Assembly (NCBI GenBank): GCA_013076295.1
Contig: RQOL01000861.1
Span: 3,286,001 to 3,350,000, forward strand
DNA length: 64,000 nt
Origin: Sanderia malayensis
Taxonomy: Eukaryota > Cnidaria > Scyphozoa > Semaeostomeae > Pelagiidae
Direction of reading: 5' to 3'
Below, in pieces: positions 2,942 through 64,000 of this stretch. The translations under genes and the position numbers were made by a program. Below the pieces are notes generated by a model. It was not told the DNA's origin. It was given only the letters and a program-made list of their open reading frames with translations, and made no database searches. How positions within the stretch are numbered: the first letter of the stretch is position 1; every line of letters begins with the position of its first letter.

Positions 2942-4418
2942 CTTTATGTATCCTCCATGAACGTTGAAATTTCAAAAATGACATTTTGAAATAGACTGAA
3001 ATCTGGGTAACAAATAGTCGAAACCTACTAATTAGGGCCTTCTCATCATTTTGAGACAAGTTTCAGCTCTCTAGGACAATTGGTTCAAAAGTTGCAAATT
3101 TCAAATCCTCGCAAGTACTGATATCTTTATGTATCCAGCATGAAAGTCGAAATTCGAGAGACCGAAAATCGAAATTCATTGAAATTTGCCTCACAAATAG
3201 TCAAAACGTACTATTTAGCGCCTTTTGATCACGTTGCAACAATTTTCAGCCCTCTAGGACAATTGGTTCAAAAGTTAAGAATTTCAAATCCTCGCGAGTA
3301 ATGAATACCTTTATGTATCCAGCATGAAAGTCGAATTTCAAGAGACCGAAAGTCGAAATTCATTGAAATTTGGCTCACAAATAGTCAAAGCGTACTATTT
3401 ACCGCCTTCTGATCACGTTGCAACAATTTTGAGCCCTCTGGGACAATTGGTTCAAAAGTTGCAAATTTCAAATCCTCGCAAGTACTGAATATCTTTATGC
3501 CAGCATGAAAGTCGAAATTCAAGAGACCGAAAATCGAAATTCATTGAAATTTGGCTCACAAATAGTCAAAACGTACTATTTAGGACCTTCTGGTCACGTT
3601 GCAACAATTTTGAGCCTTCTAGGACAATTGGTTCAAAAGTTAAGAATTTCAAATCCTCGCAAGTACTGAATATCTTTATGTATCCAGCATGAAAGTCGAA
3701 ATTCGAGAGACCGAAAATCGAAATTCATTGAAATTTGGCTGACAAATAGTCAAAACGTACTATTTAGAGCCTTCTGATCACGTTGCAACAATTTTCAGCC
3801 CTCTAGGACAATTGGTTCAAAAGTTAAGAATTTCAAATCCTCGCAAGTACTGAATAATCTTTAGCTATGTATCCAGCATGAAAGTCGAAATTCGAGAGAC
3901 CGAAAATCGAAATTCATTGAAATTTGGCTGACAAATAGCCAAAACGTACTATTTAGGGCCTTCTGGTCACGTTGCAACAATTTTGAGCCTTCTAGGACAA
4001 TTGGTTCAAAAGTTAAGAATTTCAAATCCTCGCAAGTACTGAATATCTTTATGTATCCAGCATGAAAGTCGAAATTCGAGAGACCGAAAATCGAAATTCA
4101 TTGAAATTTGGCTGACAAATAGTCAAAACGTACTATTTAGGGCCTTCTGATCACGTTGCAACAATTTTGAGCCTTCTAGGACAATTGGTTCAAAAGTTAA
4201 GAATTTCAAATCCTCGCAAGTACTGAATAATCTTTAGCTATGTATCCAGCATGAAAGTCGAAATTCGAGAGACCGAAAATCGAAATTCATTGAAATTTGG
4301 CTGACAAATAGCCAAAACGTACTATTTAGGGCCTTCTGGTCACGTTGCAACAATTTTGAGCCTTCTAGGACAATTGGTTCAAAAGTTAAGAATTTCAAAT
4401 CCTCGCAAGTACTGAATA
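2942..4418 (+). repeat. Satellite A, left block (unit about 184 bp)
   Basis: About eight head-to-tail units recur at 181-189 bp, as measured from the motif CAGCATGAAAGTCG (for example near 3141, 3325, 3506, 3690, 3879, 4063 and 4252). The first unit (2942-3125) is the most diverged, as expected at an array edge. Some units carry an extra TAGC insertion and are 189 bp. Short open frames here are repeat shadows. The array is cut at 4418 by the foldback transposon. Confidence 0.92.
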
Positions 4419-6249
4419 CCCAGTGGGCAAACAACGTTGCTACAACGTTGAAAAAACGTTGATGTCCAACGTTGTATCTACGTTGAAATTATGTTGGAAA
4501 TGAAAGTTTTTGTCAACGTTGAAGTTCAACGTTGACACAACGTTTGTGTTGCAACTATTTTTCAACGTTGATATTATGTTGAATCAACGTTTAATTAACG
4601 TTTTTTCCACGTACGTCCACCTAAAAGCATTCATTATTTATTTCACAATTTTTAGTTCAACATAATCCTCTCACAAGCTCATAATAGAGCTAAACTTATT
4701 TCGTGTATTTGGAACAGGGCAAGTTTCGTATAGATAAATAAAGACAAACTATACATTTGCAACAATTCATTGTAAATTCATCGTTCTATGTTTACACAAA
4801 AACTAAAAAAGTTCGTATACTTTTTTGAAACCAAATATTATCTTTACTTATTTTATTTCTTTCCACCATCTTTTCTAAGTCTTTCAACTTTCAGTAGTTG
4901 GCATTTGGCAAGAATGCTTTTAATTTCAGTTTCCATCGCTTTTCTCCTGGATATTGGAGAACCACAACTAGAAGAAAAGAGAATGCAAAATTTAATTCCT
5001 GACAAAGCTCAACAACGTGTTACTCGCAAATTTAACGGTTTTAAATAACTTCTAGTTCTGAAGCTATCAAGGAATGGCAATTGGAGAGTTGATGTTAATT
5101 AACACTTAAAAACATGATAGGCCTACCGAATAAAGTGCTTTTTGTTCTTTCTCTTTGTCAACTTCAACTGTGTAACGGCACTTTCAGTTTTAATTTCCTG
5201 CATAAATCAACCAAAATATTGGCATAAAATACCCTTACAAATGTAAACCCTTTTAATAATTATTTGCTTTACGATTATCAAATCATTAAAATTTGAATAA
5301 TTGATGTTCATAAAAGCTTGAAAATACAAGACTTACCAAATGAGTTCTTTGAAATATATTTTCTGTTGCAACTTTTGCTTTGCATTTTCTCCAAGTATCG
5401 AAGGAACCAAATGGTTGAGACTTTTGCAGAACACAGCTTTTAAGTTACAACGTTGTGTAACTTCACTCAAATATATTTTTCTCAGATGTTAGTAAATTTT
5501 TCTGCCAAGAAATACTTGTAATTTAAAGTTCGAACATTGAACTAACCGCCAAAAATCCCTCACTTCGAATCGAAACTCTGTCAAAAAGTGTAAAAGTTTT
5601 GTTGCTTGGAAACAAAAGAACAGTGCCTTCCATTTTCGAAGGCAAAACAAAAGGAAAGGCGGGAATAATTTGCGACATCGCAGAGGTTGTGTAAACATAG
5701 AAGGATGAATTTACAATTAATTATTGCAAATATAAAGTATTTTTATTCATCTACACAAAACTTGCGCTGTTCCAAATACACGGAAAAAGTTTAGCTCTCT
5801 TATGAGCCTGTAAGAGGGTTATGTTGAATCAAAAATTGGTGAAATAAATAATGAGTGTTTTGGGTGGACGTACGTGGAAATAACGTTGATTAAACGTTGA
5901 TTCAAGAACATAATGCGAACATTGAAAAATGGTTGCAAGAAAAACGTTGTCTCAACGTTGATCTTCAACCTTGACAAAAACTTGTCTTTAACTTTGCTTT
6001 CATAGCAATAGTTAACTTCTTTATCATATCAGAGTTATTCATTCACATCAAACTTCGCAATTCGATCAGTGTTAGAAAAATACTAAAATCTATTCAACGT
6101 TGATTCAACGTAGTATCAACGAAATATCTCAACGTTGTTTTCGGGTTGAGATATCGACGTTGATAAAACGTTGAACAGACGTTGATCAACGTGCTAACCA
6201 AATTTCAACGTCATATCCACGTTGAATCAACGACGCATTGCCCACTGGG
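4419..6249. mobile_element. Foldback DNA transposon with long inverted repeats and TA target duplication
   Basis: The element starts CCCAGTGGGCAA and ends TTGCCCACTGGG, and it is flanked by TA on both sides; removing it with one TA restores a normal satellite unit. The inverted arms are long: about 4419-4797 on the left pairs with about 5690-6249 on the right, which carries roughly 180 bp extra. The outer arms are crowded with CAACGTTG-type motifs, possibly binding sites for a transposase. The core (about 4800-5690) has only short open frames and no transposase I recognise, so the copy looks non-autonomous. TA duplication suggests a Tc1/mariner-, ISL2EU- or IS4EU-like mobiliser; the superfamily is unproven. 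Confidence 0.85.
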
Positions 6250-7610
6250 TATCTTTATGTATCCAGCATGAAAGTCGAAATTCGAGAGACCGAAAATCGA
6301 AATTCATTGAAATTTGGCTGACAAATAGTCAAAACGTACTATTTAGGGCCTTCTGATCACGTTGCAACAATTTTGAGCCTTCTAGGACAATTGGTTCAAA
6401 AGTTAAGAATTTCAAATCCTCGCAAGTACTGAATATCTTTATGTATCCAGCATGAAAGTCGAAATTCGAGAGACCGAAAATCGAAATTCATTGAAATTTG
6501 GCTCACAAATAGCCAAAACGTACTATTTAGGGCCTTCTGATCACGTTGCAACAATTTTCAGCCCTCTAGGACAATTGGTTCAAAAGTTAAGAATTTCAAA
6601 TCCTCGCAAGTACTGAATATCTTTATGTATCCAGCATGAAAGTCGAAATTCGAGAGACCGAAAATCGAAATTCATTGAAATTTGGCTCACAAATAGCCAA
6701 AACGTACTATTTAGGGCCTTCTGGTCACGTTGCAACAATTTTGAGCCTTCTAGGACAATTGGTTCAAAAGTTAATAATTTCAAATCCTCGCAAGTACTGA
6801 ATATCTTTATGTATCCAGCATGAAAGTCGAAATTCGAGAGACCGAAAATCGAAATTCATTGAAATTTGGCTGACAAATAGCCAAAACGTACTATTTAGGG
6901 CCTTCTGGTCACGTTGCAACAATTTTGAGCCTTCTAGGACAATTGGTTCAAAAGTTAAGAATTTCAAATCCTCGCAAGTACTGAATATCTTTATGTATCC
7001 AGCATGAAAGTCGAAATTCGAGAGACCGAAAATCGAAATTCATTGAAATTTGGCTGACAAATAGTCAAAACGTACTATTTAGAGCCTTCTGATCACGTTG
7101 CAACAATTTTCAGCCCTCTAGGACAATTGGTTCAAAAGTTAAGAATTTCAAATCCTCGCAAGTACTGAATATCTTTATGTATCCAGCATGAAAGTCGAAA
7201 TTCGAGAGACCGAAAATCGAAATTCATTGAAATTTGGCTCACAAATAGCCAAAACGTACTATTTAGGGCCTTCTGATCACGTTGCAACAATTTTCAGCCC
7301 TCTAAGACAATTGGTTCAAAAGTTAAGAATTTCAAATCCTCGCAAGTACTGAATATCTTTATGTAGCTATCCAGCATGAAAGTCGAAATTCGAGAGACCG
7401 AAAATCGAAATTCATTGAAATTTGGCTCACAAATAGCCAAAACGTACTATTTAGGGCCTTCTGATCACGTTGCAACAATTTTGAGCCTTCTAGGACAATT
7501 GGTGCAAAAGTTAAGAATATCAAATCCTCTTATGTATCCAGCATGAAAGTCGAAATTCGAGAGACCGAAAATCGGATTTCATTGAAATTTGGCTCACAAA
7601 ACGTTGCTGG
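6250..7610 (+). repeat. Satellite A, right block
   Basis: This continues the same array after the transposon, with about seven full units at a very regular 184 bp (motif positions near 6269, 6453, 6637, 6821, 7005, 7189, 7377). The last unit (from about 7544) is shortened and diverges after GGCTCACAAA near 7600. Confidence 0.92.
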
Positions 7611-8407
7611 TCACGGTGGAAATTATAAGCTAGGTTGCCTCGATTTGAGCGCCCTGTCAAATGAAAAGGAAAATCTCTGCGAAGTCTCCAAAGTCTTCTT
7701 GCTCTGGAGACAAGAGTTTGGAGGCTGCGAAGTTTCCACTTTTCCGGAGCATTGACCAAAAAAGGCGCTTTTCATCTCTCCGAAGTCTCCAGAAAATGGA
7801 TAGGATGAGGCAAAAAATGTTTCCAAAAGAATGCACCCGCACCCTGTGTGAAAAGGCGAAGGAATTCTCTGAGAAGGGAAGGGATTGTTTTCATTTCTAT
7901 TTTAGCTTTGAATCCTTGAGTCCTTGAATATCCATTTATTTGTACTAAATATTTCACGGTTTTTGTCTTTTGTTCATTTGATATACCGGCAGTTAAATTC
8001 TTTTCTTCCGCCCGAGGATTGCAAGTAAAGACGTCATCTTTAATATTTACCGGATTGACGGAATGTTTAGTAGGGTGGGGGGATGATTATGTTGTGACTA
8101 ATAACGCTAACTTTTTATTGGAGAAGATTTCCTTTTTCGCTCGTCACAATGTTTGAAATATTATTGTGTACTTCATACTAAAAGGTATTTGTCATTTTTC
8201 ATACGGACAACTTTTCGTTCTTACAACACAACTCTTGTACATGACACTGATTTATAAAGATTATCTTGCTTTGTTTACAATGCGCCGAGTATAGGTATGT
8301 TGTCATTGGTACATGACGTTTTGTCAATTTAGGCCAGAGAATCAATGGAACCGTGCAGACGTATAACTGTGATTTCATTTTGCCCTTTGTTAGGTACTTA
8401 GACAGTG
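7611..8407. other. Intergenic, upstream of RasGRP
   Basis: The stretch 7650-7900 is rich in short AAGTCTCC/GGAGACTT-type words and gives overlapping open frames on both strands with no recognisable domain; I do not call a gene. 7900-8407 is AT-rich and should include the RasGRP promoter and 5' UTR. An in-frame TAG at 8399-8401 precedes the RasGRP ATG. Confidence 0.45.
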
Positions 8408-11400
8408 ATGGGAAAAGGCGAAAATGATGATTTTGATGATGTCTCGTATGAGAAATCACCTCAAAATGGTGTTACTATCAGAGCTGCAAGCTTCCCGTTC
8501 TTGGTTAGAAGGTCTCTTCGCGATTTTGGTATGCAAAGTGTTTCATTTCACTTTTATTATCATCGCTTCAATTAGAATGGGTGATGGACACAGGAGAAGT
8601 GACATGCAGCACCCGATTTAACGATTTTTCGCACAAGTGAAAAAACGTAGTATCCAGGCTTTACTGAGGTCCGTTTTATAGAATTTCCGAGAATTTCAAA
8701 AGTCCACATCTTCGTGAGGATATATACCCCACCCACCCACGTTTAATCACATGTATGATGCATGTGCTAAAATGCATCGCGATGATGCAGTGATGCAAAT
8801 GACGAGTAATTTAATGTACTATTAATTTTTTCAGATGCTAATGGCCCTCTGGTAGAGCCGTGTGCATTCTCATCCGTCTTTTTTCTTACTTATCAATGGT
8901 ATCTTGAACCTGGGGAGCTCCTCTCAATGTACACTGATAGGTATGCATTCTGTTCATGATACAATAACTTCAATAGCCAGACTGCTATAAGTTTAACTAT
9001 TAAGATAGTTTCTTTCTGAATGTGTACAAGACAGTTTCTTTCTGATTAATAATCCTTGATAAGTCTTAACCTTGCAATAAGCTTATTGAGTGTGCAATCT
9101 CAAAAACATAATTCACTTTTTTCCAGGTACAGGCTAATATATATGTCAGATAAAGAACAAGAGCAGAACAAGAAGCTACAGATTTGTCAAGCAGTTAGGT
9201 GGGTTGTTTGCATATTTCATTGTAGCTTGGATCTTTAAAGATAGCACCACCAATCGTGTAATTTTTGCATTAGCAGCAACTGAAAACATTTGCTCATTCA
9301 TCCAATTATTTACTAATTGCATGCTTATGATTGTAGTTATTGGATAAACAATCACGGTTATGATTTCAAATCAAACCAAGATGTTCGCATGCAACTGCTC
9401 GAGTTTCAGGATGATGTTCAGAGTGATATCGGCAATGTTGGTGCTCAGTTGTTGGATATTGGCATTTGGTGAGTTATAACTCCTGTATTTCACTCACTCA
9501 CATGAAGTGGAATTGCAAGAGAATGAAGCGGCTATGGCCCCTGGCATGAGTTCTGGAGAGTTTGGAGGAACTCATGTTAGGGATGTCGGAGAGTAGTTGT
9601 GCAGGGGGCAAGTGTCCCTCTTTTCTTTTCTTAATGGGTCAATGTGCCTCTTTAATATATGAAACTGGGAGCAACGAAAATCAATAATACCAAAGCCTGC
9701 CAGCTACTACAAGATAATAAATATGCGATTCAGAATGAGGAGATGTGAAGAATTTGCATCTCCTCATAACATGTTTAATATATGTTAAGATATTTTTGAT
9801 GGCATTGTTAGTCAATTTAAAGGGCATGATCGCAAACGTTTTCCATAGGTACCCCACTCCTGACTTCCCAGTTTTTGGTCTGTTTGCTTTCATTTTCGGT
9901 CTTGATTGCCTTACGTTCCGAGTCGCCCCTGCCCTAACATTCATTTCTTTGCTGTGGTTTGTAGGAATTTAGCTTGACAGTTCTAGTCTGTCAGGTATAT
10001 AAGTCTGTCAGATGTGACATTATACATTGCTGTAATTTGTAGGAATGTGACCAGACAGTCAATGAAGCTGAAGCTAGATTTGAGCTCACAGAGAACTTTG
10101 TCGTTCACTGAGCTGAGCCCAAGGGATATAGCAGAACAGATAACTTATCTTGATTGGAAAGCAAGCAGTAAAATAAGTGTGAGTCAATTCACATCAAATC
10201 ATGTTTGGATTCCCTCGTTCCATTTTATTCCACCATTCCATTCCACTGTCGTTCCATCTAATTATTATAAAATGGTTTGATGAAGTAGTTATCTTGGCTT
10301 TTGTTAAGGGTATTGTGATATCTATTAAATTCAAACGTGTCTTTTGCAGTTTGTTGAGTGGAGAGACTACGCAAAGACCAGTAAGGCGAATCTGAGTCCA
10401 AATCTGCGAAACCTAATTGGGACTTTTAACAATACGTCTAAATGGATAGCTGCTATGGTTCTGCAGAAGACAACTCCAGAGGCCAGATCGAAACAAATGA
10501 AGAAATTTGTCCTTGTTTGCAGAGTGAGTATTTTGTATTTCCTTAATTGCATTTATCTTTCAGCACAACTCGGATCTAAATCACTGTACAGATTACGTGA
10601 ACAACTGCTGTCTCCCTAAGCAAATGGACAATTACTGTGGTGATAAGTGGCTGTTTTATTCCAGCATTTGAAAACCCTTGGCAATTACAATGGATTAATG
10701 GCCGTAATGGGCGGATTGTCACACAGTGTCTTGGAGAGGTTGAATAAAACAAAGGAACTCTTGTCAAATGAAGACAAATTAGTAAGTTTTTCATTTTCAT
10801 AAGATGATGCTTGAGTTTGATATAACTTTTTCTTCTTGAGTAATGAGCAAAATTCCCGCAAATGCAATTAAATACTTTTTAGATACATTCAAATCTGCAT
10901 AGTTCGAACTCGTGTGCTTCGAACTCTATTTAGTTCGAACGAAATTCTCCGTCCCTTCAAGGATCACTAATGAACCAACTCTTATTAAACAAACCTCTAT
11001 AATTCAAGCTTTTTATAAATCAAACATTTTCACGCTTCCCCAGGGTGCTCGTATTAGACAGAGTTGACTGTATTTACTTTTTTACTTTGAAGTATTTTTG
11101 CGCAGACGAAAATGTTACAATTTTTTTATTTTTTTTTCGCTCAGTTTATGAAGGAAGTACTAAATCTATTATCTTCAGATGGAAATTATAGTCAATACAG
11201 GAGTGAAATTGCACAATTTGATGGATTTTGTGTCCCAATAATGTAAGTAAAGTAAATTCTTAAGACGTCGTTGTTACTACTACCTTGTTGATGTATTCAA
11301 CTTTAATTTTATATTCTTTCCCTTTTATGTTTTGGGATTCAATTATCTGTTCTCCACAGAGGTGAGTAATTTTGTGAAATTTCTTCAGTGAATCCATAAT

Positions 11401-14400
11401 ACGTTGTCATTGTTGATTTTTTGAATTTTATTGCTGCATGGTCTTTTTCGCATTATCAGACCAATTGAATAAACGCCCACTTATGCTACCAACTTTTGAA
11501 ATAAGCCCCCCTTCGAATAATGGCCCCCTCGATCAGGCGCCCCCCGTTTAATCGAGGAGATACGGTTATTGCACTTGTCTGTATGAGATTTTCAGTGAAG
11601 AACATCTTTCTTTTTGCAATACAGGCGTGATAATGAAAGACATAATTTCGTTGGATACGGCTGTGCCAGATTTTTTGAACGAGAATGGAAGAAGACTTTG
11701 TCACTTCAAGAAAGTCTATCAACTGGCCAAGCTGCTGAAGAATTTCAAATGCATTGGGACAACTAAACCCCCGATCTTGCCAAAGGCAGATCTTGTCAAC
11801 ATACTGAGGGTAAGTCATGATCCAAAGACAATGGTTAGAGATCTCAATCTGTTACATAGATATATATACTACTACAATGCGTAATTTTAGTAGCCGTAGT
11901 GCCTCTTTTTGAAGTAGCAGATAAACAATATATACAGTAAACACCCGCATATAAGAACCAGTGAATTAAGAACCTTCCAGGCTGAAATGATCCCTGCTGA
12001 AAACAATAGAGGAGACAATAGGTTATTGTATTTGGACAATAGGCTGGATGCAGAATTCACAGGTTCTTATACGCGGGTGTTTACTGTATTGTTTTTTATA
12101 TTGAAATCTTATTTTTTTTATGTATAGGTGTCGTTACAGCCTCGATTCACCGAAGAAGAACTATACGAAATGTCACTGGAAAGAGAGCCCAGATGTCAAA
12201 CACCAACCGTAAGGCATTTTAGCTAAACCCACGCCAAAATACTTGCAGCACTGTAAACACATGCTTGTAAGATCTGTAGATTAAGAACCCACTGGGCTGA
12301 TATTTCTGCTTAAAACAATTAAAGATACAATGGGTTATTGTATTTAAATAATGAGCTGGATTCAAATTTCACACGTTCTTGTACTCAAGTGTTTATTCTA
12401 TGCTAACATCGATTCTTGATTATGAAGTCCTAAGTATTACATTAGATGTCAATACTGTTCATAATAATACTACCTTGTTTAATAGTTTATAATTCATTGT
12501 TTTTGTTTTACATTTTTAGACGTGTACATTACCTCGAGGCATCAAGTCGAAGCCAATGTTTGCTGAATGGGCTGCCGGTATCGATATTACACCAGATAGA
12601 GAGATAGTTGTTCGATACGTCGAACGAATGGTTGATGTATGTTATTGCTTCTCTGATTCTTTGATTCTTTGATTCTTTGATTCTTTGATTCTTTGATTCT
12701 TTGATTCTTTGATTCTTTGATTCTTTGATTCTTTGATTCTTTGATTCTTTGATTCTTTGATTCTTTGATTCTTTGATTCTTTGATTCTTTGATTCTTTGA
12801 TTCTTTGATTCTTTGATTCTTTGATTCTTTGATTCTTTGATTCTTTGATTCTTTGATTCTTTGATTCTTTGATTCTTTGATTCTTTTCTTTGATTCTTTG
12901 ATTCTTTGATTCTTTGATTCTTTGATTCTTTGATTCTTTGATTCTTTGATTCTTTGATTCTTTGATTCTTTGATTCTTTGATTCTTTGATTCTTTGATTC
13001 TTTGATTCGTTAATCACTGTGTAACTCTTGCTATTGTTTATTTGTAGGCAGTTTTTAAAGTGTACGATACTGACAAGGACGGCAGCATAAACCAAGAAGA
13101 GTTCAGATTAATTGCAACGAATTTTCCCTTCATTGACGATTTCACATTGATTGACACCAACTGGTATGTACATAGGTATTCAATGTGAATGCAATTGCGC
13201 CCATTGTGAATCTAATTTTTTAACTCTCGATTTTCTAAATATCTTGTATTTTATTGTTTCTATTAGTGACGAAAGCATCAGCAAAGAAGAAATGAGGAAT
13301 TATTTTATGAATGTCAACTCGCATGTAATGACACGAGATTTCGTTCATTCGTTTCAAGAGACGACAATCATAACACCCGTATTATGTGTTTACTGCACTG
13401 GCTATGTGAGTATATTTTCTTTCTTTCACGACCTTCTAATCGGCAACTAATGCCACTCGAGCGTAGCGAGGAGTTTTTAAAGGGAAGCTGTTACCTAAAG
13501 CTGATTGTCAAACCACAACAGAGCATTTGAGTCAGTGCAAAAAATAAGTGAACTCTACTGCAGATGAGGCAGGCAGGCTACGTCTCCGCTATTCTATTGA
13601 TTGATCACTCTACTTTCCTAAGTTGGTTTCTAATAATAGGTTTCTCATCGTTGGTATTGGTTTCTAATAAATATAATAAGAACTTTAAATGGCTTGAAAG
13701 GATGGGTTATATCATGCCCTTTTTAACCTCCAAAGGTTAATTAGATAATTTGATCCTTTCCGTTCTTCTAGCTCTGGGGATTGGGAAAATCTGCTTATAA
13801 ATGTAAAGGTAAGGGATTCTTGCTGGAGAGACATTATGATTAGTTGTTTGTTAATGGAGTCAAGAGCAGTAGGCCGCTTGAAATCAACCCTGATCTCCTT
13901 TTGTGTCGTAGAATGCCATATAATATGCCATAAAGACTGCAAAGACCACGTGGTTATGGAATGCCGGCAGAAGAATCATGTCCAATCTAAAGGCAAGCCA
14001 GACGTTTTAATTTAGAATAATGATATGATGATAGTGGTAATTATGCCGATTAATATTGCTGATGAAGTTGGTTGGTTAGTTTTAAAGATGCTTTATGATG
14101 TAAATTGTTGTTGCAGATAAGGCCAGTAAATCCAAAACGATCCGAAAAAGGATGAAGTTTTTGGAGCAGTCGTTTGGTGGGTCTACTGATTCACAGATTT
14201 ACCCTGCTATTGGTGCATCAACGTTAAAAACGTTGAATTCAATTGATAACGAACACTTCTTAAAGCTACAAGAACAGATGAAGAAGTTAGAAATGGTATT
14301 GATTTGCATGTTAAATTCTGTCCTTATAAACCGCATTGTCCATTGGTTAAATCTTGCAGGGTTGTATGTTTCCAGGGGAATTCCACCATGCCCTCTTGGC

Positions 14401-14839
14401 ACTCTGCGTATGTTTGCTCTGAATTGTTTTCTTGTTTAATTGGGTGCATGTGCTGCACTGAATTTAAGCCAGTGCATGTGCTGCACTGAATTTAAGCCAG
14501 TGCATGTGCTGCACTGAATTTAAGCTGCAGTCTAACAATGGATAACGATACCACCTAATGCAAGGAGTTCCATTTTTAAAGAGCTCGCAGTTCTAAAAGC
14601 TTTGTTATGCTTGAATTCATCTCTGTATTCCCATAACAGTTGTTTATGTTTCGATTTTTCCATTGCAGGAAAAATCGGTGCTCGAAGACGAGAACATGGA
14701 CTTGCGCACAAAGCTCCACGCTGCTCGAACAGACATAAGCAAACTGAAATCAGAAGTATCAGATCTGCAGAACCACAGTGTTTATTTCTCGCTGAAAAGA
14801 ATGGAAATGCTCAACATGCAAGTGCAGACAGACGTGTGA
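8408..14839 (+). CDS. RASGRP-like: RasGRP-type Ras guanine-nucleotide exchange factor, complete
   Basis: Exons: 8408-8528, 8835-8940, 9127-9198, 9337-9468, 10043-10178, 10350-10523, 10665-10781, 11145-11242, 11360-11361 (candidate 2-nt exon), 11625-11809, 12128-12208, 12520-12636, 13048-13163, 13267-13405, 13772-13808, 13912-13992, 14117-14295, 14669-14839. They give 687 aa with one open frame. Domains: REM about 25-145; CDC25-type RasGEF about 175-395 (LSPRDIAEQITYLDW, LMAVMGGLSHS); two EF-hand loops at about 454-465 and 483-494; C1 zinc finger 513-562 with every His/Cys ligand; C-terminal coiled coil. This order is diagnostic of RasGRP, which loads Ras/Rap with GTP in response to calcium and diacylglycerol. 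The C1 loop lacks the usual QG pair. The intron after 13992 has a GC donor. Confidence 0.93.
11360..11361 (+). other. Candidate 2-nt microexon (AG) of the RasGRP gene
   Basis: The exon ending at 11242 leaves phase 2 (AT), and the next clear exon, at 11625, starts GC GTG ATA. Joined directly the frame is lost. Between them, TCTCCACAG at 11351-11359 and GTGAGT at 11362-11367 are a good acceptor and donor separated by only AG. Including AG gives PIIGVIMKDIIS, which aligns without a gap to the PILGVHLKDLIS segment I know from RasGRP1. The alternative is acceptor use at 11595, which adds about 10 residues in frame. Confidence 0.6.
11935..12085. mobile_element. MITE with CAGTAAACACCCG inverted ends, TA target duplication
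   Basis: The ends CAGTAAACACCCGCATATAA and their near-exact reverse complement (TTATACGCGGGTGTTTACTG) enclose about 151 bp, flanked by TA on both sides. It lies in a RasGRP intron. The short length, CAGT ends and TA duplication fit a Tc1/mariner-type MITE. Related copies are at 12251-12398 and 30492-30641. Confidence 0.8.
12251..12398. mobile_element. Degenerate copy of the same MITE family
   Basis: It begins CTGTAAACAC and ends near AAGTGTTTATTC, with the shared internal order GATTAAGAACC, GATATTTCTGCT, GGTTATTGTATTT and GTTCTTGTAC. The ends are mutated and no clean target duplication remains. It is in the next RasGRP intron. Confidence 0.6.
12651..13009 (+). repeat. (TTTGATTC)n microsatellite, about 44 copies
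   Basis: A nearly perfect 8-bp tandem repeat of about 360 bp starts about 15 nt after the RasGRP donor at 12636. One imperfect unit occurs near 12880-12890. The minus strand is open through the whole run and would encode repeating KESKNQRI, but this is a repeat artefact. Confidence 0.97.
14443..14526 (+). repeat. 28-bp tandem repeat, three copies
   Basis: Three almost identical copies of GTGCATGTGCTGCACTGAAT plus TTAAGCCA lie in the last RasGRP intron. Each unit contains a small internal palindrome (GCATGTGCTGC). Confidence 0.9.
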
Positions 14840-15345
14840 AGATAAGTTTCAAACATGCGCTCTTGATTATTGTTGCCATTAATTTCCGAATGCACGCGTG
14901 CATGTTGAGTGGCATGTAGCTGCCCAGTTAATGCTTAAGGTGCACGCATTTGCTTTTTTGTACGACCACAAAGCACTCGCTGCTGTATTTTTACGTGGCA
15001 CGAGCATGATAAGCATGTAAACCACTCGCTGCTGTATTTTTGCGTGGCACGAGCATGATAAGCATGCAAACACACAAACAAATATTTATATATATATTAT
15101 ATTGCCGAACATATAAGTATTAATTTATTTTCTAAATGTCAGGGAGTTAATTAAAATAGTCTTAAATATTCTCATTTTTAAAATATTTTAAATGTATAAC
15201 CTATAAAGCTATTATAATCACGTCGCCATAAAATGTTGGCATTTAAATGATGTGAGCTTGTAAAATGAAAAATATCTATGAATTAATTCGACTAGCCACT
15301 TCAAAGTTATAGGGTATCAAGGGTCAATTAGTGGATATTTTCTTG
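14840..15345. other. Convergent 3' regions of RasGRP and the GT31 gene, with a 49-bp tandem pair
   Basis: This gap holds the 3' UTRs of two convergent genes. At 14972-15069 a 49-bp unit (containing CACTCGCTGCTGTATTTTT) is present twice in tandem with few differences. TTTATT near 15124 could be the AATAAA signal for the minus-strand gene. I see no gene here. Confidence 0.6.
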
Positions 15346-16815
15346 TTAGACCTCTCCGTATATTTCCCTGGAGTGGAATTCACTGTTAGTAATACGCCAT
15401 GTTGGTTCGTCTTTGCATGGCTTCATCTCAAACCGTAGCTCGATATAAAACTCCTGTACGTCGAAAACCTTGTTCGAAAATCTACACTTATCTTCGTATC
15501 GAGGAATATCAGGCACTGTTGTTATGTTTTGGTTTATCGTGTTTCTTCTAGCTTGCGTGACTTGCCAGTATTTTCTCATCGTCTTCGGGTAACTACCGTG
15601 CAATGCTAAGTAATGCCTGCATATGTCGATACCAATGTACGAGGCGTTGTGGTAACTAGTGGCCGAATGCACGATACGAGCATTGTCATAGAAGTAGGTG
15701 ACATTGAATTTACTATCAATCATCCATGCTGCAACTGCTTGGTCTCCATATGGATGGCAAGGTAATGATGAATTCAACTTCGATAATGCTTCTTCCACAA
15801 GATCTCTTGTCAATATCATCCAACCTTCATCCACTCTTACTATGTTCAGTCTGCAGTGAATGTAGCCCCAGTAAAGGCTGTTTTTCTGGCGATGGTGTAG
15901 TTCGTAGACAAGTCTTTCCAAGCACAGAAAGTAATCGTCATCAATGCGAAGGAAAAAATCGAATTTGTAATTTGAAGTCAGCCACTTCATCATCCATAAC
16001 AATCGAAGTGAAAAATTGTAGCCACCTGGTAAAAAGTTTACACGTATCATAATAAATCTAGCTTTGTTGATATTTATCTGATCATCTTTTTACATAATTA
16101 CGTATGCATTCTTTCTTTCATCACTAACACTATGTATATCTTATTTTTTTGTTGAGATTTTTATGAATCTATATCATAATCATATATAATTCATATCTTA
16201 TTTATATATACTTTGTTAATTTACAGGGGCATTTGGCTGTATACTGAAATCGAAGAGAAATCTTAGCTTGGATCAACAAAAGAAATCTTCATTCACTCCA
16301 TCATTATCTCCATGTAAGCATGTTTATATAGATAACATCGATAGACGTGTAATGATGAAATAACCCTTAAGCCTCCCTCCTCCATTCTTACCTTGATACG
16401 GCATGAATAGCATGTCGTTATATTTCTCGCTTTCGTTCATGACCTTCTCCTTGTCTTGTGAAGATAGTCGATCAGGACTGTCAGTGAAGAACTTGCATTC
16501 CACTATTCCCTTCTCAAAACTCTTACACAATGACATCCATGTTTGTCTGACGGCTCGCCGTCGCTTAAAATCTGTTACTTTGTTCAAAACTCCAACAAAA
16601 AGCAGCAAAGAACCATCCTCTACTTCTCCATGTTTCTCTGTATCGTTTTCCTTCAACAACGGATGCTGTCCTTGTATATTTCCTTGCTTGCACCACTTTG
16701 TGGACAATGAACTTAAGTTGTACTGCAATAACAACACGACAGATCCCATGAGTGCTATTATGGCAATTATCTTTGGCTTTTTTAATAACCCTGATGAAAT
16801 TAATTTCTGTACCAT
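15346..16815 (-). CDS. GT31-family beta-1,3-glycosyltransferase (galactosyltransferase-like), type II membrane protein
   Basis: Two exons on the minus strand: 16392-16815 and 15346-16025, joined CAAG|GTGGC in phase, giving 367 aa. The ATG at 16813-16815 gives a short basic cytoplasmic tail and one membrane helix at about 16-32 (IIAIIALMGSVVLLL), the usual Golgi anchor. GT31 signs follow: RRRAVRQTW near residue 90, the metal-binding LRIDDDYF (Asp 170-172), EGWMILTRDLVEEAL, and GDQAVAAWM where many relatives have an ED pair. There are several N-glycosylation sites. Such enzymes add a beta-1,3-linked sugar, often Gal or GlcNAc, from a UDP donor; the acceptor cannot be told from sequence. An acceptor site at 16855-16856 implies a non-coding 5' exon upstream. 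Confidence 0.85.
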
Positions 16816-48104: not shown

Positions 48105-48512
48105 TAAATTTTTGTTTCCTTGATTTGCTTGGCAACTATGTATATGTTGCTTTGTTTGTAAATTGTTGCCCTTTGAGGGCTTTGCATTGTCTTATAAAGG
48201 GAGTATTTTGCGTGGTGATTCGCTTAATTTGATTGGCTTGTCGCTGGTTAGCTTGCTGTGTTGGGAGCTCTGATTGGTTTATTGTGCTTGTCACTTTCAT
48301 CAAGCTGAGATTAGATACAGGCAGCATCGCTATGCGTGATATTTTCGATTGGTGCCAGATTAAAATACCTTGCCTGTGTCAAGTAATCAACGCACCCTTG
48401 GTGCGGCCCTGTTAATTTTGGTTGTTGATTAGCATCAAAAAAGAGTCACGCAATATGAGAAATCCGTGCCTAATTAACTAAAGTTAATAAATTTCATGTA
48501 TTAACTAACATT
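48105..48512 (-). repeat. Split direct repeat B, outer copy
   Basis: 408 bp, the 5' end of the element on the coding strand. It should carry the promoter. The Gag ATG lies 36 bp further in. The outer edge at 48512/48513 meets the satellite AAAAGATAACAC directly. Confidence 0.95.
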
Positions 48513-51500
48513 AAAAGATAACACTTATTCCTACAATTTACACCAACAAAAATTTACTTTTCTTCCCGCAACCTACACAAATCAAAATGAAGATTCATTG
48601 CCACAATTTGCGCATGATTCCACGTCAATTCAGCGAAAACAAATTGTTATACACTTTTAGTTACTCTTCTCAGTAATATTAACATTCATTCCCACAATTT
48701 ACACTAATAAAACATAACACTCATTCCCGCAATTTACACCAATAAAAATTAACTTTTATTCCCGAAACTCACACTAATCAAAATTAAGATTCATTCCCAC
48801 AATTTGCGCATGATTCCACGTCTATTCTGCGAAAACAAATTGTTATACACTTTTAGTTACTTTTTTCAGTAATATTAATATTCATTCCCACAATTTCCAC
48901 GAATAAAAGATAACACTCATTTCCACAGTTTACACTAATAAAAACTAACTTTCACTCCTACAATTTACACCAATAAAAATTAACTTTTGTCCCCGCAACT
49001 TACACTGATCAAAATTAGGATTCATTCCCACTATTTGCGCATGATTCCACGTCAATTCAGCGAAAACAAATTGTTATACACTTTTAGTTACTTTTTTCAG
49101 TAATATTAACATTCATTCCCACAATTTACACTAATAAAAGATGACACTGATTCCCGCAATTTACACAAACAAAAATTAACTTTTATCCCCGCAACTTAAA
49201 CTAATCAAAATTAGCATTCATTCCTACAATTTGCGCATTATTCCACGTCAATTCAGCGAAAACAATTGGTTATACATTTTTAATTACTTTTCTCAGTAAT
49301 ATTAACATTAATTCTCACAATTTCCACGAATTTGCGCATGATTCCACGTCAATTCAGCGAAAGCAAATTGTTATACACTTTTAGTTTCTTTTTTTTATAA
49401 TATTAACATTGATTCCCACAATTTACACTAATAAAAGATAACACTCATTCCCACAATTGACACTAATAAAAATTAACTTTCATTCCCACAATTTACACCA
49501 ATAAAAATTAACTTTTACTCCCGCAACTTACACTAGTCAAAATTAGGATTCATTCCCACAATTTGCGCATGATTCCACGACTATTCAGCGAAAACAAATT
49601 GTTATACACTTTTAGTTACTTTGTTCAGTAATATTAACATTCATTCCCACAATTTCCACGAATAAAAGATAACACTCATTCCCACAGTTTACACTAATAA
49701 AAACTACCTTTCACTCCTACAATTTACACCAATAAAAAATAACTTTTATTCCCGCAACTTACACTGATCAAAATTAAGATTCATTCCCACAATTTGCGCA
49801 TGATTCCACGTCAATTCAGCGAAAACATACTGTTATACACTTTTAGTTACTTTTTCTGTAATATTAACATTCATTCCCACAATTTCCACGAATAAAAGAT
49901 AACACTCATTCCCACAATTTACACTAATAAAAATTAACTTTCACTCCTACAATTGACACCAATAAAAATTAACTTTTATTCCAGCAACTTACACTGATCA
50001 AGATTAGGACTCATTCCCACAATTTGCGGATGATTCCACGTCAATTCAGTGAAAACAAATTGTTATACATATTTAGTTACTTTTTTCAGTTATTTTAACA
50101 TTCATTCCCACAAATTACACTAATAAAAGATAACACTCATTCCCACAATTGACACTAATAAAAATTAAGTTTCATTCCCACAATTTACACCAATAAAAAT
50201 TGACTTTTATTCCCGCAACTTACACTGATCAAGATTAGGACTCATTCCCACAATTTGCGCATGATTCCACGTCAATTCAGCGAAAACAAATTGTTATACA
50301 CTTTTAGTTACTTTTTTCAGTTATTTTAACAATCATTCCCACAATTTACACTAATAAAAGATAACACTCATTCCCACAATTTACACCAATGAAAATTTAA
50401 CATTTGCTCGCGCAACTGACACTAATCAAAATTAGCTTTCCTTCCCATAATTTGCGCATGATTCCACGTCAATTCAGCGAAAAGAAATTATTATACACTT
50501 TTAGTTACTTTTTTCAGTAATATTAACACTCATTGCCACAATTTACACTAATAAAAGATAACACTCATTCCCACAATTTACACCAATGATAATTTAACAT
50601 TTACTCCCGCAACTGACACTAATCAAAATTAGTTTTCCTTCCCACAATTTGCGCATGATTCCACGTAAATTCAGCGAAAAGAAATTGCTATACACTTTTA
50701 GTTACTTTTTTCAGAAAAATTTACATTCATTCCCAAAATTTACACTAATAAAAGATAACACTCATTCCCACAATTTACACCAATGAAAATTACCTTTTAT
50801 TTCCGCAGCTTACACTAATCAAAATTAACATTTATTCCCACATTTTGCGCTTGATTCCACGTCAATTCAGCGAAAACAAATTGTTGTGCACTTTTAGTTA
50901 CTTTTTTTCAGTAATATTAACATTAATTCCCACAATTTACACTAATAAATGATAACGCTCATTCCCACAATTTACACCAATGATAATTTCACATTTACTC
51001 ACGCAACTGACACTAATCAAAATTAGCTTTCCTTCCCACAATTTGCGCATGATTCCACGTCAATTCAGCGAAAAGAAATTCTTATACACTTTTAGTAACT
51101 TTTTTCAGTAATATTAACATTCATTCCCACAATTTACACTAATAAAAGATAACACTCATTCCCACAATTTACACCAATGATAATTTCACATTTACTCCCG
51201 CAACCTACACAAATCAAAATGAAGATTCATTGCCACAATTTGGGCATGATTCCACGTCAATTCAGCGAAAACACATTGTTATGCACTTTTAGTTACATCT
51301 TTCAGTAATATTAACACTCATTGCCACAATTTACACTAATAAAAGATAACACTCATTCCCACAATTTACACCAATGAAAATTAATTCTCATTCCCGCAAC
51401 TTACACTGATAAAAATTAACATTCATTCCAACAATTTGCGCATGATTCCACGTCAATTCAGCGAAAACAAATTGTTATACACTTTTAGTTACTCTTTTCA

Positions 51501-54500
51501 GTAATATTAACATTCATTCCCACAATTTGCGCATGATTCCGCGTCAATTCAGCGAAAGCAAATTGTTATGCACTTTTAGTTACCTTTTTCATTCATATTA
51601 ACATTCATTCCCACAATTTACACTAATAAAAGATAACACTCATTCCCACAATTTACACAAATGAAAATTACCTTTTATTTCCGCAACTTACACTAATCAA
51701 AATTAACATTTATTCCCACATTTTGCGCATGATTCCACGTCAATTCAGCGAAAACATATAGTTGTGCACTTTTAGTTACTTTTTTTCAGTAATATTAACA
51801 TTCATTCCCACAATTTACGCTAATAAAAGATAACACTTATTCCTACAATTTACACCAACAAAAATTTACTTTTCTTCCCGCAACCTACACAAATCAAAAT
51901 GAAGATTCATTGCCACAATTTGCGCATGATTCCACGTCAATTCAGCGAAAACAAATTGTTATACACTTTTAGTTACTCTTTTCAGTAATATTAACATTCA
52001 TTCCCACAATTTACACTAATAAAACATAACACTCATTCCCACAATTTACACCAATAAAAATTTAACATTTACTCCCGCAACTTACACTAATCAAAATTGA
52101 CATTCATTCGCACAATTTGCGCATGATTCCGCGTCAATTCAGCGAGAGCAAATTGCTATGCACTTTTAGTTACCTTTTTCATTCAAAATTAAATCAAATC
52201 AAAAATCAAAATTAACATTTATTCCCACATTTTGCGCATGATTTCACGTCAATTCAGCGACAACAAATTGTTGTGCACTTTTAGTTATTTTTTTTCAGTA
52301 ATACTAACATTCATTCCCACAATTTACACTAATAAAAGATAACACGCATTCCCACAATTTACACCAACAAAAGTTTACTTTTCTTCCCGCAACCTACACA
52401 AATCAAAATGAAGATTCTTTGCCACAATTTGCGCATGATTCCACGTAAATTCAGCGAAAACACATTGTTATGCACTTTTAGTTACCTTTTTCATTCATAT
52501 TAACATTCATTCCCACAATTTACACTAATGAAAGATAACACTCATTTCCACAATTTACACCAACAAAAATTTACTTTTAATCCCGCAACTTACCCCAATC
52601 AAAATTAGCTTTCCTTCCCCCAATTTGCGCATTATTCCACGTCAATTCAGCGAAAAAAAAATTCTTATACACTTTTAGTTACCCTTTTCAGTAATATTAA
52701 CATTCATTCCCACAATTTGCACTAATAAAAGATAACACTCATTCTCACAATTTACAGCAATAAAAATTAACTTTTATTCCCGCAACTTACACTAATCAAA
52801 GTTAACATTCATTCCCATAATTTGCGCAAGATTCCACGTCAATTCAGCGAAAACAAATTGTTTTGCACATTTAGTTACTTTTTTTCAGTAATATTAACAT
52901 TCATTCCCACAATTTACACTAATGAAAGATAACACTCATTTCCACAATTTACACCAACAAAAATTTACTTTTATTCCCGCAACTTACACCAATCAAAATT
53001 AGCTTTCTTTCCCCCAATTTGCGCATGATTCCACGTCAATTCAGCGAAAAGAAATTCTTATACACTTTTAGTTACCCTTTTCAGTAATATTAACATTCAT
53101 TCCCACAATTTACACTAATAAAAGATAACACTCATTCTCACAATTTATAGCAATAAAAATTAACTTTTATTCCCGCAACTTACACTAATCAAAGTTAACA
53201 TTCATTCCCACAATTTGCGCAAGATTCCACGTCAATTCAGCGAAAACAAATTGTTTTGCACATTTAGTTACTTTTTTTCAGTGATATTAACATTCATTTC
53301 CACAATTTACACTAATAAAAGATAACACTCATTCCCACAATTTACACCAATGAAAATTACCTTTTATTTCCGCAGCTTACACTAATCAAAATTAGCATTT
53401 ATTCCCACATTTTGCGCATGATTCCACGTCAAGTCAGCGAAAAGAAATTCTTATACACTTTTAGTTACCCTTTTCAGTAATATTAACATTCATTCCCACA
53501 ATTTACACTAATAAAGGATAACACTCATTCTCACAATTTACAGCAATAAAAATTAACTTTTGTTCCCGCAACTTACACTAATCAAAGTTAACATTCATTC
53601 CCACAATTTGCGCATGATTCCACGTCAATTTACCTAAAAAAATTGTCATACATTTTTAGTTACTCTTTTCAGTAATATTAACATTCATTCCCACAATTTA
53701 CACTAATAAAAGATAACACTCATTCCCACAATTTACACCAATAAAAATTTAACATTTACTCCCGCAACTTACACTAATCAAAATTGACATTCATTCGCAC
53801 AATTTGCGCATGATTCCACGTCAATTCAGCGAAAACAATTTGTTATGCATTTTTAATTACTTTTCTCAGTAATATTAACATTAAATTTCACAATTTCCAC
53901 GAATAAAAGATAACGCCCATTCCCGCAACTTACACTAATCAAAATTAACATTCATTGCAACAATTTGCGCATGATTCAACGTCAATTCAGCGAAAACAAA
54001 TTTGTTATGCACTTTTAGTTACTTTTTTCAGTCATATTACCATTCATTCCCACAATTTACACTAATAAATGATAACACTCATTCCCACAATTTACACCAA
54101 TAATAATTTAACATATACTCCCGCAACTTACACTAATCAAAATTGACATTAATTCCCACAATTTGCGCATGATTCCGCGTCAATTCAACGAAAGCAAATT
54201 GTTATCCACCTTTAGTTACTTTATTCAGTCATATTACCATTCATTCCCACAATTTACACTAATAAAAGATAACACTCATTCCCACAATTTACACCAACAA
54301 AAATTTACTTTTCTTCCCACAACCTACACAAATCAAAATGAAGATTCATTGCCATAATTTGCGCATGATTCCACGTCAATTCAGCGAAAAAAAATTATTA
54401 TACACTTTTAGTTACTTTTTTCAGTAATATTAACACTCATTGCCACAATTTACACTAATAAAAGATAACACTCATTCCCACAATTTACACCAATGATAAT

Positions 54501-57500
54501 TTAACATTTACTCCCGCAACTGACACTAATCAAAATTAGTTTTCCTTCCCACAATTTGCGCATGATTCCACGTAAATTCAGCGAAAAGAAATTGCTATAC
54601 ACTTTTAGTTACTTTTTTCAGAAAAATTTACATTCATTCCCAAAATTTACACTAATAAAAGATAACACTCATTCCCACAATTTACACCAATGAAAATTAC
54701 CTTTTATTTCCGCAGCTTACACTAATCAAAATTAACATTTATTCCCACATTTTGCGGTTGATTCCACGTCAATTCAGCGAAAACAAATTGTTGTGCACTT
54801 TTAGTTACTTTTTTTCAGTAATATTAACATTAATTCCCACAATTTACACTAATAAATGATAACACTCATTCCCACAATTTACACCAATGATAATTTCACA
54901 TTTACTCCCGCAACTGACACTAATCAAAATTAGCTTTCCTTCCCACAATTTGCGCATGATTCCACGTCAATTCAGCGAAAAGAAATTCTTATACACTTTT
55001 AGTAACTTTTTTCAGTAATATTAACATTCATTCCCACAATTTACACTAATAAAAGATAACACTCATTCCCACAATTTACACCAATGATAATTTCACATTT
55101 ACTCCCGCAACCTACACATATCAAAATGAAGATTCATTGCCACAATTTGCGCATGATTCCACGTCAATTCAGCGAAAACACATTGTTATGCACTTTTAGT
55201 TACATCTTTCAGTAATATTAACACTCATTGCCACAATTTACACTAATAAAAGATAACACTCATTCCCACAATTTACATCAATGAAAATTAATTCTCATTC
55301 CCGCAACTTACACTGATAAAAATTAACATTCATTCCAACAATTTGCGCATGATTCCACGTCAATTCAGCGAAAACAAATTGTTATACACTTTTAGTTACT
55401 CTTTTCAGTAATATTAACATTCATTCCCACAATTTGCGCATGATTCCGCGTCAATTCAGCGAAAGCAAATTGTTATGCACTTTTAGTTACCTTTTTCATT
55501 CATATTAACATTCATTCCCACAATTTACACTAATAAAAGATAACACTCATTCCCACAATTTACAGAAATGAAAATTACCTTTTATTTCCGCAACTTACAC
55601 TAATCAAAATTAACATTTATTCCCACATTTTGCGCATGATTCCACGTCAATTCAGCGAAAACAAATTGTTATACACTTTTAATTACTTTTTTCAGTAATA
55701 TTTACATTCATTCCCACAATTTACACTAATAAAAGATAACACTCATTCCCATGGTTTACACTAATAAAAACTAACTTTCACTCCTACAACTTACACTAAT
55801 AAAAATTAACTTTTGTTCCCGCAACTTACACTAATCAAAATTGACATTAATTCCCACAATTTGCGCATGATTCCGCGTCAATTCAACGAAAGCAAATTGT
55901 TATCCACCTTTAGTTACTTTATTCAGTCATATTACAATTCATTCCCACAATTTACACTAATAAAAGATAACACTCATTCCCACAATTTACACCAACAAAA
56001 ATTTACTTTTCTTCCCGCAACCTACACAAATCAGAATGAAGATTCATTGCCATAATTTGCGCATGATTCCACGTCAATTCAGCGAAAAGAAATTATTATA
56101 CACTTTTAGTTACTTTTTTCAGTAATATTAACACTCATTGCCACAATTTACACTAATAAAAGATAACACTCATTCCCACAATTTACACCAATGATAATTT
56201 AACATTTACTCCCGCAACTGACACTAATCAAAATTAGTTTTCCTTCCCACAATTTGCGCATGATTCCACGTAAATTCAGCGAAAAGAAATTGCAATACAC
56301 TTTTAGTTACTTTTTTCAGAAAAATTTACATTCATTCCCAAAATTTACACTAATAAAAGATAACACTCATTCCCACAATTTACACCAATGAAAATTACCT
56401 TTTATTTCCGCAGCTTACACTAATCAAAATTAACATTTATTCCCACATTTTGCGCTTGATTCCACGTCAATTCAGCGAAAACAAATTGTTGTGCACTTTT
56501 AGTTACTTTTTTTCAGTAATATTAACATTAATTCCCACAATTTACACTAATAAATGATAACACTCATTCCCACAATTTACACCAATGATAATTTCACATT
56601 TACTCCCGCAACTGACACTAATCAAAATTAGCTTTCCTTCCCACAATTTGCGCATGATTCCACGTCAATTCAGCGAAAAGAAATTCTTATACACTTTTAG
56701 TAACTTTTTTCAGTAATATTAACATTCATTCCCACAATTTACACTAATAAAAGATAACACTCATTCCCACAATTTACACCAATGATAATTTCACATTTAC
56801 TCCCGCAACCTACACAAATCAAAATGAAGATTCATTGCCACAATTTGCGCATGATTCCACGTCAATTCAGCGAAAACACATTGTTATGCACTTTTAGTTA
56901 CCTCTTTCAGTAATATTAACACTCATTGCCACAATTTACACTAATAAAAGATAACACTCATTCCCACAATTTACATCAATGAAAATTAATTCTCATTCCC
57001 GCAACTTACACTGATAAAAATTAACATTCATTCCAACAATTTGCGCATGATTCCACGTCAATTCAGCGAAAACAAATTGTTATACACTTTTAGTTACTCT
57101 TTTCAGTAATATTAACATTCATTCCCACAATTTGCGCATGATTCCGCGTCAATTCAGCGAAAGCAAATTGTTATGCACTTTTAGTTACCTTTTTCATTCA
57201 TATTAACATTCATTCCCACAATTTACACTAATAAAAGATAACACTCATTCCCACAATTTACACAAATGAAAATTACCTTTTATTTCCGCAACTTACACTA
57301 ATCAAAATTAACATTTATTCCCACATTTTGCGCATGATTCCACGTCAATTCAGCGAAAACATATAGTTGTGCACTTTTAGTTACTTTTTTTCAGTAATAT
57401 TAACATTCATTCCCACAATTTACGCTAATAAAAGATAACACTTATTCCTACAATTTACACCAACAAAAATTTACTTTTCTTCCCGCAACCTACACAAATC

Positions 57501-63500: not shown

Positions 63501-64000
63501 TACACTTTTAGTTACCCTTTTCAGTAATATTAACATTCATTCCCACAATTTGCACTAATAAAAGATAACACTCATTCTCACAATTTACAGCAATAAAAAT
63601 TAACTTTTATTCCCGCAACTTACACTAATCAAAGTTAACATTCATTCCCATAATTTGCGCAAGATTCCACGTCAATTCAGCGAAAACAAATTGTTTTGCA
63701 CATTTAGTTACTTTTTTTCAGTAATATTAACATTCATTCCCACAATTTACACTAATGAAAGATAACACTCATTTCCACAATTTACACCAACAAAAATTTA
63801 CTTTTATTCCCGCAACTTACACCAATCAAAATTAGCTTTCTTTCCCCCAATTTGCGCATGATTCCACGTCAATTCAGCGAAAAGAAATTCTTATACACTT
63901 TTAGTTACCCTTTTCAGTAATATTAACATTCATTCCCACAATTTACACTAATAAAAGATAACACTCATTCTCACAATTTATAGCAATAAAAATTAACTTT
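48513..64000 (+). repeat. Satellite B: modular tandem array with higher-order repeats (runs off right edge)
   Basis: The whole stretch is one array. The long module begins GCGCATGATTCCACGTCAAT and runs about 93 bp; between long modules lie three or four short ones of about 34 bp with the pattern ATTCCCACAATTTACAC..AATAAAA. Unit lengths are therefore about 196 or 231 bp (long-module starts near 48610, 48806, 49037, 49233, 49565, 49796, 50026, 50257, 50454). Larger repeats are layered on top: about 1.70 kb (54160-55860 with 55860-57560), 5.09 kb (about 52650-54340 with 57740-59430) and 10.83 kb (about 50007-53165 with 60841-64000). Open frames at 54163, 55813 and 59251 are shadows of these copies. 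No genes seen. Confidence 0.95.

Follow-up and report, generated by a model that had tools for sequence, protein, structure and literature searches.

How is the protein-coding frame of a gene maintained where two well-supported neighbouring exons do not fit together? This question is raised by the RasGRP gene of the scyphozoan jellyfish Sanderia malayensis, which lies in the 64,000-nucleotide (nt) stretch analysed here (assembly GCA_013076295.1, contig RQOL01000861.1, positions 3,286,001 to 3,350,000 of the forward strand; hereafter the window, numbered from its first letter). An initial annotation of this DNA claimed that direct joining of exons 8 and 9 breaks the frame, and that the bases AG, lying alone between an acceptor and a donor inside the presumed intron, restore it as an exon of 2 nt. 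We confirmed the first claim: without intervening bases, exons 8 and 9 are out of frame with each other, and translation meets a stop within exon 9. From the analyses below we conclude that AG at 11360-11361 is very probably a real, constitutive 2-nt coding exon of Sanderia RasGRP, a reading drawn from genomic and protein sequences.

With AG in place, the joint becomes CCA ATA ATA GGC GTG and the translation reads PIIGVIMKDIISLD, with PIIGVIMKD ungapped against the RasGRP family, as had been claimed. The site (Table 1) combines the features expected of a 2-nt exon, namely out-of-phase neighbours, a conserved motif (PIIG) that is restored gap-free, and canonical splice sites on both sides (CAG/AG/GTGAGT). 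The frame also stays open with a single intron (11243-11595) that uses an acceptor at 11596. Exon 9 is then 29 nt longer and the joint reads PII-EEHLSFCNT-GVIMKD, with nine extra residues before the Gly. The initial annotation had named this alternative and put the addition at about ten residues. The RasGEF domain scored 148.3 bits with AG versus 135.7 bits for the model with the nine extra residues.

Table 1. Features of the RasGRP locus at and around the joint between exons 8 and 9, in window positions; a slash within a sequence marks a splice site.
Feature	Position	Strand	Remarks
RasGRP coding span, possible start ATG to stop	8408..14839	+	18 coding exons including the proposed 2-nt one
Exon 8	11145..11242	+	Ends in phase 2, ..CCA ATA AT (PI + AT)
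Intron 8a, 117 nt	11243..11359	+	Donor AAT/GTAAGT; weak acceptor TTCTCCACAG/
Proposed 2-nt exon AG	11360..11361	+	Would complete ATA (Ile) and begin GGC (Gly)
Intron 8b, 263 nt	11362..11624	+	Donor AG/GTGAGT (very strong); acceptor CAATACAG/
Exon 9	11625..11809	+	Starts in phase 1 with bases two and three of the Gly codon (GC GTG ATA)
Extra 29 nt of exon 9 with acceptor 11596	11596..11624	+	Residues EEHLSFCNT; used by public model P0001
Interspersed repeat within intron 8b	11467..11566	+	55 further genome matches to parts of it, 75-95% identical

Relative proteins were aligned to the locus with a spliced aligner that used flat costs and GT/GC..AG introns. The AG exon was picked for all 13 proteins tried, and in a separate run for 8/8, which were a subset of the same proteins. 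Nine of the 13 alignments contained no other exon of up to 12 nt. The other four contained further tiny exons (one each for P0012 and P0013, two for P0005 and three for P0007), which are probably patches. Blocking the donor of the AG exon cost 10 score units in 13/13 alignments; 11 of these moved to acceptor 11596 and two to another joint. The choice of AG was stable at intron costs of 5, 10 and 15 for the three proteins tried.

The same joint was examined in 182 relatives from three protein searches, two of which contributed the best 120 of 134 and the best 120 of 1482 matches. Sorting by name, contig size and similarity gave 12 transcript-like proteins, 15 cnidarian genome models, two sponge proteins and 144 bilaterian-type or unnamed proteins, the last group mixing genome models and transcript-like proteins; nine others were left out. 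Transcript-like proteins come from 1.8-4.6 kb contigs with long open frames and were taken as cnidarian from similarity. A contiguous PIxG motif was present in 12/12 transcript-like proteins, 2/2 sponge proteins, 142/144 bilaterian-type or unnamed proteins and 7/15 cnidarian genome models. The joint was broken in 8/15 cnidarian genome-derived models versus 2/144 in the bilaterian-type or unnamed group (Fisher P 3e-8, relatedness not corrected for). We used this motif test because an earlier ungapped test, now dropped, also flagged natural length differences of 1-2 residues upstream of the motif; such differences account for its flags in 2/12 transcript-like and 2/2 sponge proteins and for most of those in 12/144 bilaterian-type proteins.

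The eight broken models fail in several ways at this one place. P0001, from S. malayensis itself, has an insert at the joint. In P0004 (which matches Rhopilema), P0025 (Actinostola) and P0110 (Acropora), exon 8 ends early and is followed by exon 9; by hand inference, these cut ends are consistent with an exon 9 that opens with G and one further base. Exon 8 is absent from P0018 (Stylophora) and P0019 (Orbicella), where sequence resumes at GIQLKDL. P0099 (Porites) starts at the joint, and P0106 (Desmophyllum) stops at PIL, an end that would result if exon 8 continued into a GTAA donor (again read by hand). The joint between exons 8 and 9 is the break common to all eight, and the transcript-like P0003 has the identical PIIGVIMKD with no insert. 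The same gap seems to be common to jellyfish, corals and sea anemones, a spread that is read from errors in gene models, i.e. from proteins. One scan each of viral_contigs and genome_contigs returned no RasGRP DNA locus of the relatives; going by these protein models, the AG exon may be conserved at the DNA level.

The Porites model allows the size of the gap to be read. The first 13 residues of P0099 (Porites lobata) fit exon 8 (NDAAYNGFHIPI plus two bases), read in its +1 frame, with exon 9 attached directly; G and one further base were taken as the opening of exon 9. When all codings were searched for P0099, this frame and start gave solutions and seven other combinations gave none. When P0014, a Porites-like transcript protein, was put through 2892 window-and-frame tests, two fit, both at the same site. 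P0014 itself reads PILG. Therefore, the coral mRNA holds two bases that are absent from the direct joint, in the same position and phases as in Sanderia. Together with the failure of eight of 15 cnidarian genome-derived models at the joint, this frame gap supports a 2-nt exon as the best interpretation. It also bears on an assembly error, in which two bases would have been lost at the edge of an exon flanking one ordinary intron. Small indels are the commonest long-read assembly error, which counts for this explanation, but the loss would have to fall exactly at the joint and recur in Porites, and the sequence CAG/AG/GTGAGT would be left unexplained. Of all the explanations considered, we give this one the least credence.

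Splice sites were scored against 46 acceptors (left-one-out) and 45 donors of the same genome. The matrix was built from 15 acceptors of RasGRP plus 31 introns from four protein-kinase-C-like loci (57 introns listed; the 31 with at least nine local matches kept and 26 dropped). The donor after AG, described as good in the initial annotation, is among the strongest, with 44/45 reference donors at or below donor 11362 and 37/45 at or below donor 11243. The pattern YAG-NN-GTRAGT occurs once in the window on both strands, versus 0.97 expected from shuffles, and the probability of a chance match inside the 382-nt interval between exons 8 and 9 is about 0.003. Nowhere else in the window, on either strand, is there a 2-nt AG..GT pair in which both sites match the strength of those around AG. 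Among 15 open cassettes that restore the frame (no stop in exons 8-9), AG had the best combined site score (10.4 versus 4.9 for the next). The other frame-restoring routes scanned were six upstream acceptors (three open: 11557, 11560 and 11596), five alternative donors (three open, all weak) and two acceptors inside exon 9 (both open, weak). Fair sites were found only for 11596 and the 2-nt AG among the alternatives scanned.

The same two bases could also reach the mRNA through one GT-AC intron (11243-11622) that keeps the AG directly before exon 9. The resulting mRNA is the same as with the 2-nt exon, and since both positions supply AG, cDNA alignment alone cannot separate them. Such an intron requires a non-canonical 3′ splice site, and its final bases seem to vary between species (AC in Sanderia, TC-like in Stylophora P0018 and CC-like in the hemichordate Saccoglossus P0141, hand-read from broken models). 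It also leaves CAG/AG/GTGAGT as a 0.3% coincidence, and we regard it as highly improbable.

Several observations weigh against the AG exon. The chief one is its weak acceptor, which the initial annotation had called good: only 2/46 reference acceptors score at or below 11360, compared with 17/46 for acceptor 11596 and 13/46 for acceptor 11625. Among the 178 unused AGs in RasGRP introns, the score of 11360 is reached by 30, that of 11625 by 11 and that of 11596 by six, itself included. When introns were shuffled, 16 of 200 allowed a frame-restoring 2-nt exon with equal alignment score on a bare AG-NN-GT, and therefore the consensus context of the sites carries the weight. When the cost of an intron was raised to 20, 25 or 30, alignments of the three proteins tried switched to 11596. 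Among the relatives, most of the eight broken models have further breaks elsewhere, P0018 and P0019 lacking exon 8 altogether. Six of the seven unbroken cnidarian models have NCBI-style names and are ungapped, although the broken P0019 is also NCBI-style named. Nematostella P0016 is ungapped too, but it reads PILRIQ, with R where the other motif-bearing proteins have G or A.

Public model P0001, the only gene model of the species found, counts for acceptor 11596, as it uses this site. Acceptor 11596 also scores above both 11360 and 11625, and it is the site to which the aligner turns at high intron costs. The nine residues would lie in a low-confidence loop before a helix (AlphaFold; pLDDT under 50, residues 322-327), and the structure model of P0001, considered as a means to exclude the insert, does not do so. 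The 23 proteins from one of the searches included no Sanderia transcript; the closest of them, P0001 (95%), is a gene model. It also lacks the exon at 13912-13992 (GC donor), so that its C1 match is 21.4 bits (cut-off 26.5) versus 44.6 bits. Gene finders thus fail at two hard places of RasGRP, and P0001 is therefore poor evidence of a transcript. Furthermore, none of the 12 transcript-like proteins taken as cnidarian, P0003 included, has an insert; the 29 nt of the longer form include the pyrimidine tract of acceptor 11625 (13/16); and the Porites frame gap is left unexplained. Use of acceptor 11596 in place of the AG exon is therefore improbable; if it were made, the longer form would perhaps be confined to S. 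malayensis or be a minor isoform. On this balance, we infer that AG is included in the mRNA.

The gene itself has the domain order of RasGRP, with REM (RasGEF_N), CDC25 (RasGEF), EF-hand and C1 all found. The best solved relative of its product is RAS guanyl-releasing protein 1 (4l9m, E 3.4e-101), and a C-terminal helix after C1 is predicted from the model of P0001. The exon structure was assembled by hand and then compared with spliced alignments of relative proteins. Close relatives re-derived the hand-built introns (17/17 placed with P0003 and 16/16 with P0002); 11 more distant proteins agreed less, recovering 11 to 14 of these introns among the 14 to 23 placed. A search of the genome (184,004,477 bases, 918 contigs) gave no second RasGRP locus among 11 own-genome matches, and no Rfam family reached its gathering score within 8000-15200. 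The exon at 13912-13992, which encodes the second half of the C1 domain, is followed by a GC donor at 13993 (AAG/GCAAGC). The matching segment is missing from P0001, Stylophora P0018 and Orbicella P0019, and the GC-AG intron after 13992 may be conserved in cnidarians.

Repeats are found within and around the gene. A RasGRP intron holds about 46 copies of the 8-mer TTGATTCT (12645-13008), and upstream of the gene, at 2997-4420 and 6250-7600, a 184-bp repeat, seemingly the same one, forms two arrays (7.7 and 7.4 copies). An open frame on the minus strand (15346-16089), lying tail to tail with RasGRP, has a weak galactosyltransferase match (PF01762, E 5.6e-5). About 15 kb of satellite-like nested tandem repeats (periods such as 35, 197 and 393) fill 48512-64000 and continue past the window end.

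How might an exon of two bases be spliced? Introns 8a and 8b are both short, and each could be recognised by intron definition. Their removal would be sequential, since two bases leave no room for a 3′ splice-site complex and U1 at the same time. Since donor 11362 is very strong and acceptor 11360 weak, intron 8b would probably be removed first, a mild preference; AG would thereby join exon 9, and the weak acceptor would then face an exon of normal size. The reverse order is also workable, as removal of intron 8a would recreate a strong donor (TAG/GTGAGT). RNA folding of the interval between exons 8 and 9 gave nothing unusual (z -0.47). In the mRNA, AG would finish the Ile codon and start the Gly codon of PI(I/L)G, a conserved segment of the CDC25 domain. 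Skipping shifts the frame and leads to a stop in exon 9, and inclusion is therefore required for a working exchange factor; from sequence, the exon is predicted to be constitutive; otherwise it would serve as an on-off switch.

Neuronal microexons of animals are also tiny, and they are mostly regulated, multiples of three in length and neural; the Sanderia AG exon shares their small size and must be included for the frame. Conserved ultra-short exons have been described for plants and Fusarium (PMC4674806, PMC8831610, PMC12940212). Arabidopsis APC11 has a proven 1-nt exon; when this was artificially made 2 nt long, it was spliced correctly in Arabidopsis but not in rice (PMC4674806). For APC11, Guo and Liu favour intron definition with stepwise removal, and in a potato case cited in the same paper the second intron goes first (PMC4674806). 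Sanderia RasGRP resembles APC11 and VPS55 (PMC4674806, PMC8831610) in having a frame-essential ultra-short exon with canonical sites that was missed by annotation. VPS55 also has GTRAGT donors, and the plant 1-nt exons are long conserved in plants (PMC8831610, PMC4674806). In contrast, the plant exons are of 1 nt and proven by cDNA (for APC11 also by minigenes), whereas that of Sanderia is of 2 nt, in an animal and known from sequence.

The Fusarium gene CYP621A, in which a 1-nt exon was seen in 18 reads, offers a further parallel: exon phases that do not match at a conserved motif, an additional mini-exon and database models that are wrong at the joint (PMC12940212). Unlike the Sanderia exon, that of CYP621A is of 1 nt, is known from one fungal genus and close names, and has its DNA aligned in all members. 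The initial annotation also noted a resemblance to recursive splicing. This holds as an analogy, since Drosophila ratchet points and Ubx microexons likewise have an acceptor and donor that nearly touch, and a first removal that recreates a donor (PMC8605326). A ratchet point of zero nt was rejected: those of Drosophila leave nothing in the mRNA and are found mostly in long introns (PMC8605326), whereas here the mRNA needs the two bases that separate acceptor and donor, and the introns span 117 + 263 nt, 382 nt in all with AG. A literature search, mostly not of full texts, found no description of a 2-nt animal exon, but Nelson and Syed (PMC12940212) cite 2-5 bp exons in Arabidopsis, Drosophila and humans from earlier work. 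The AG exon thus joins the known kind of 1-nt exons and is notable for its apparent spread across Cnidaria. If the gap is shared by jellyfish, corals and sea anemones, the exon would rank, in size and in age, with the most extreme yet proposed in animals: among the smallest and among the oldest.

Some models outside Cnidaria hint at an older origin. At the same joint, Saccoglossus P0141, a model flagged as low quality, has FKIPIF-SNYNSTKPGTP-GVHLKD, which includes a patch of 11 residues, while the hemichordate Ptychodera reads PILG. The Saccoglossus patch is 35 nt long and, like the 29-nt patch in Sanderia, leaves a remainder of 2 when divided by three. A partial rotifer protein, P0118, begins near the joint; other Rotaria proteins are intact. 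We tentatively raise the idea, which we hold to be rather less probable than its opposite, that the 2-nt exon predates the split of Cnidaria and Bilateria and has been kept in jellyfish, stony corals, sea anemones and at least one hemichordate. If true, the smallest deeply conserved exon of animals would have gone unseen in public gene models.

Exons this small, of one or two bases, probe what an exon must offer the spliceosome, because nothing can bind to the exon itself and recognition has to come from the introns and stepwise removal. If the AG exon is shared by jellyfish, corals and anemones, it would provide an animal case that is testable in Nematostella or Exaiptasia. Such an exon would also account for the many RasGRP models of these animals that are cut or patched at one point. 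More generally, a breakpoint shared by the models of many species, with intact transcripts, would be a cheap and general flag for exons that gene finders miss.

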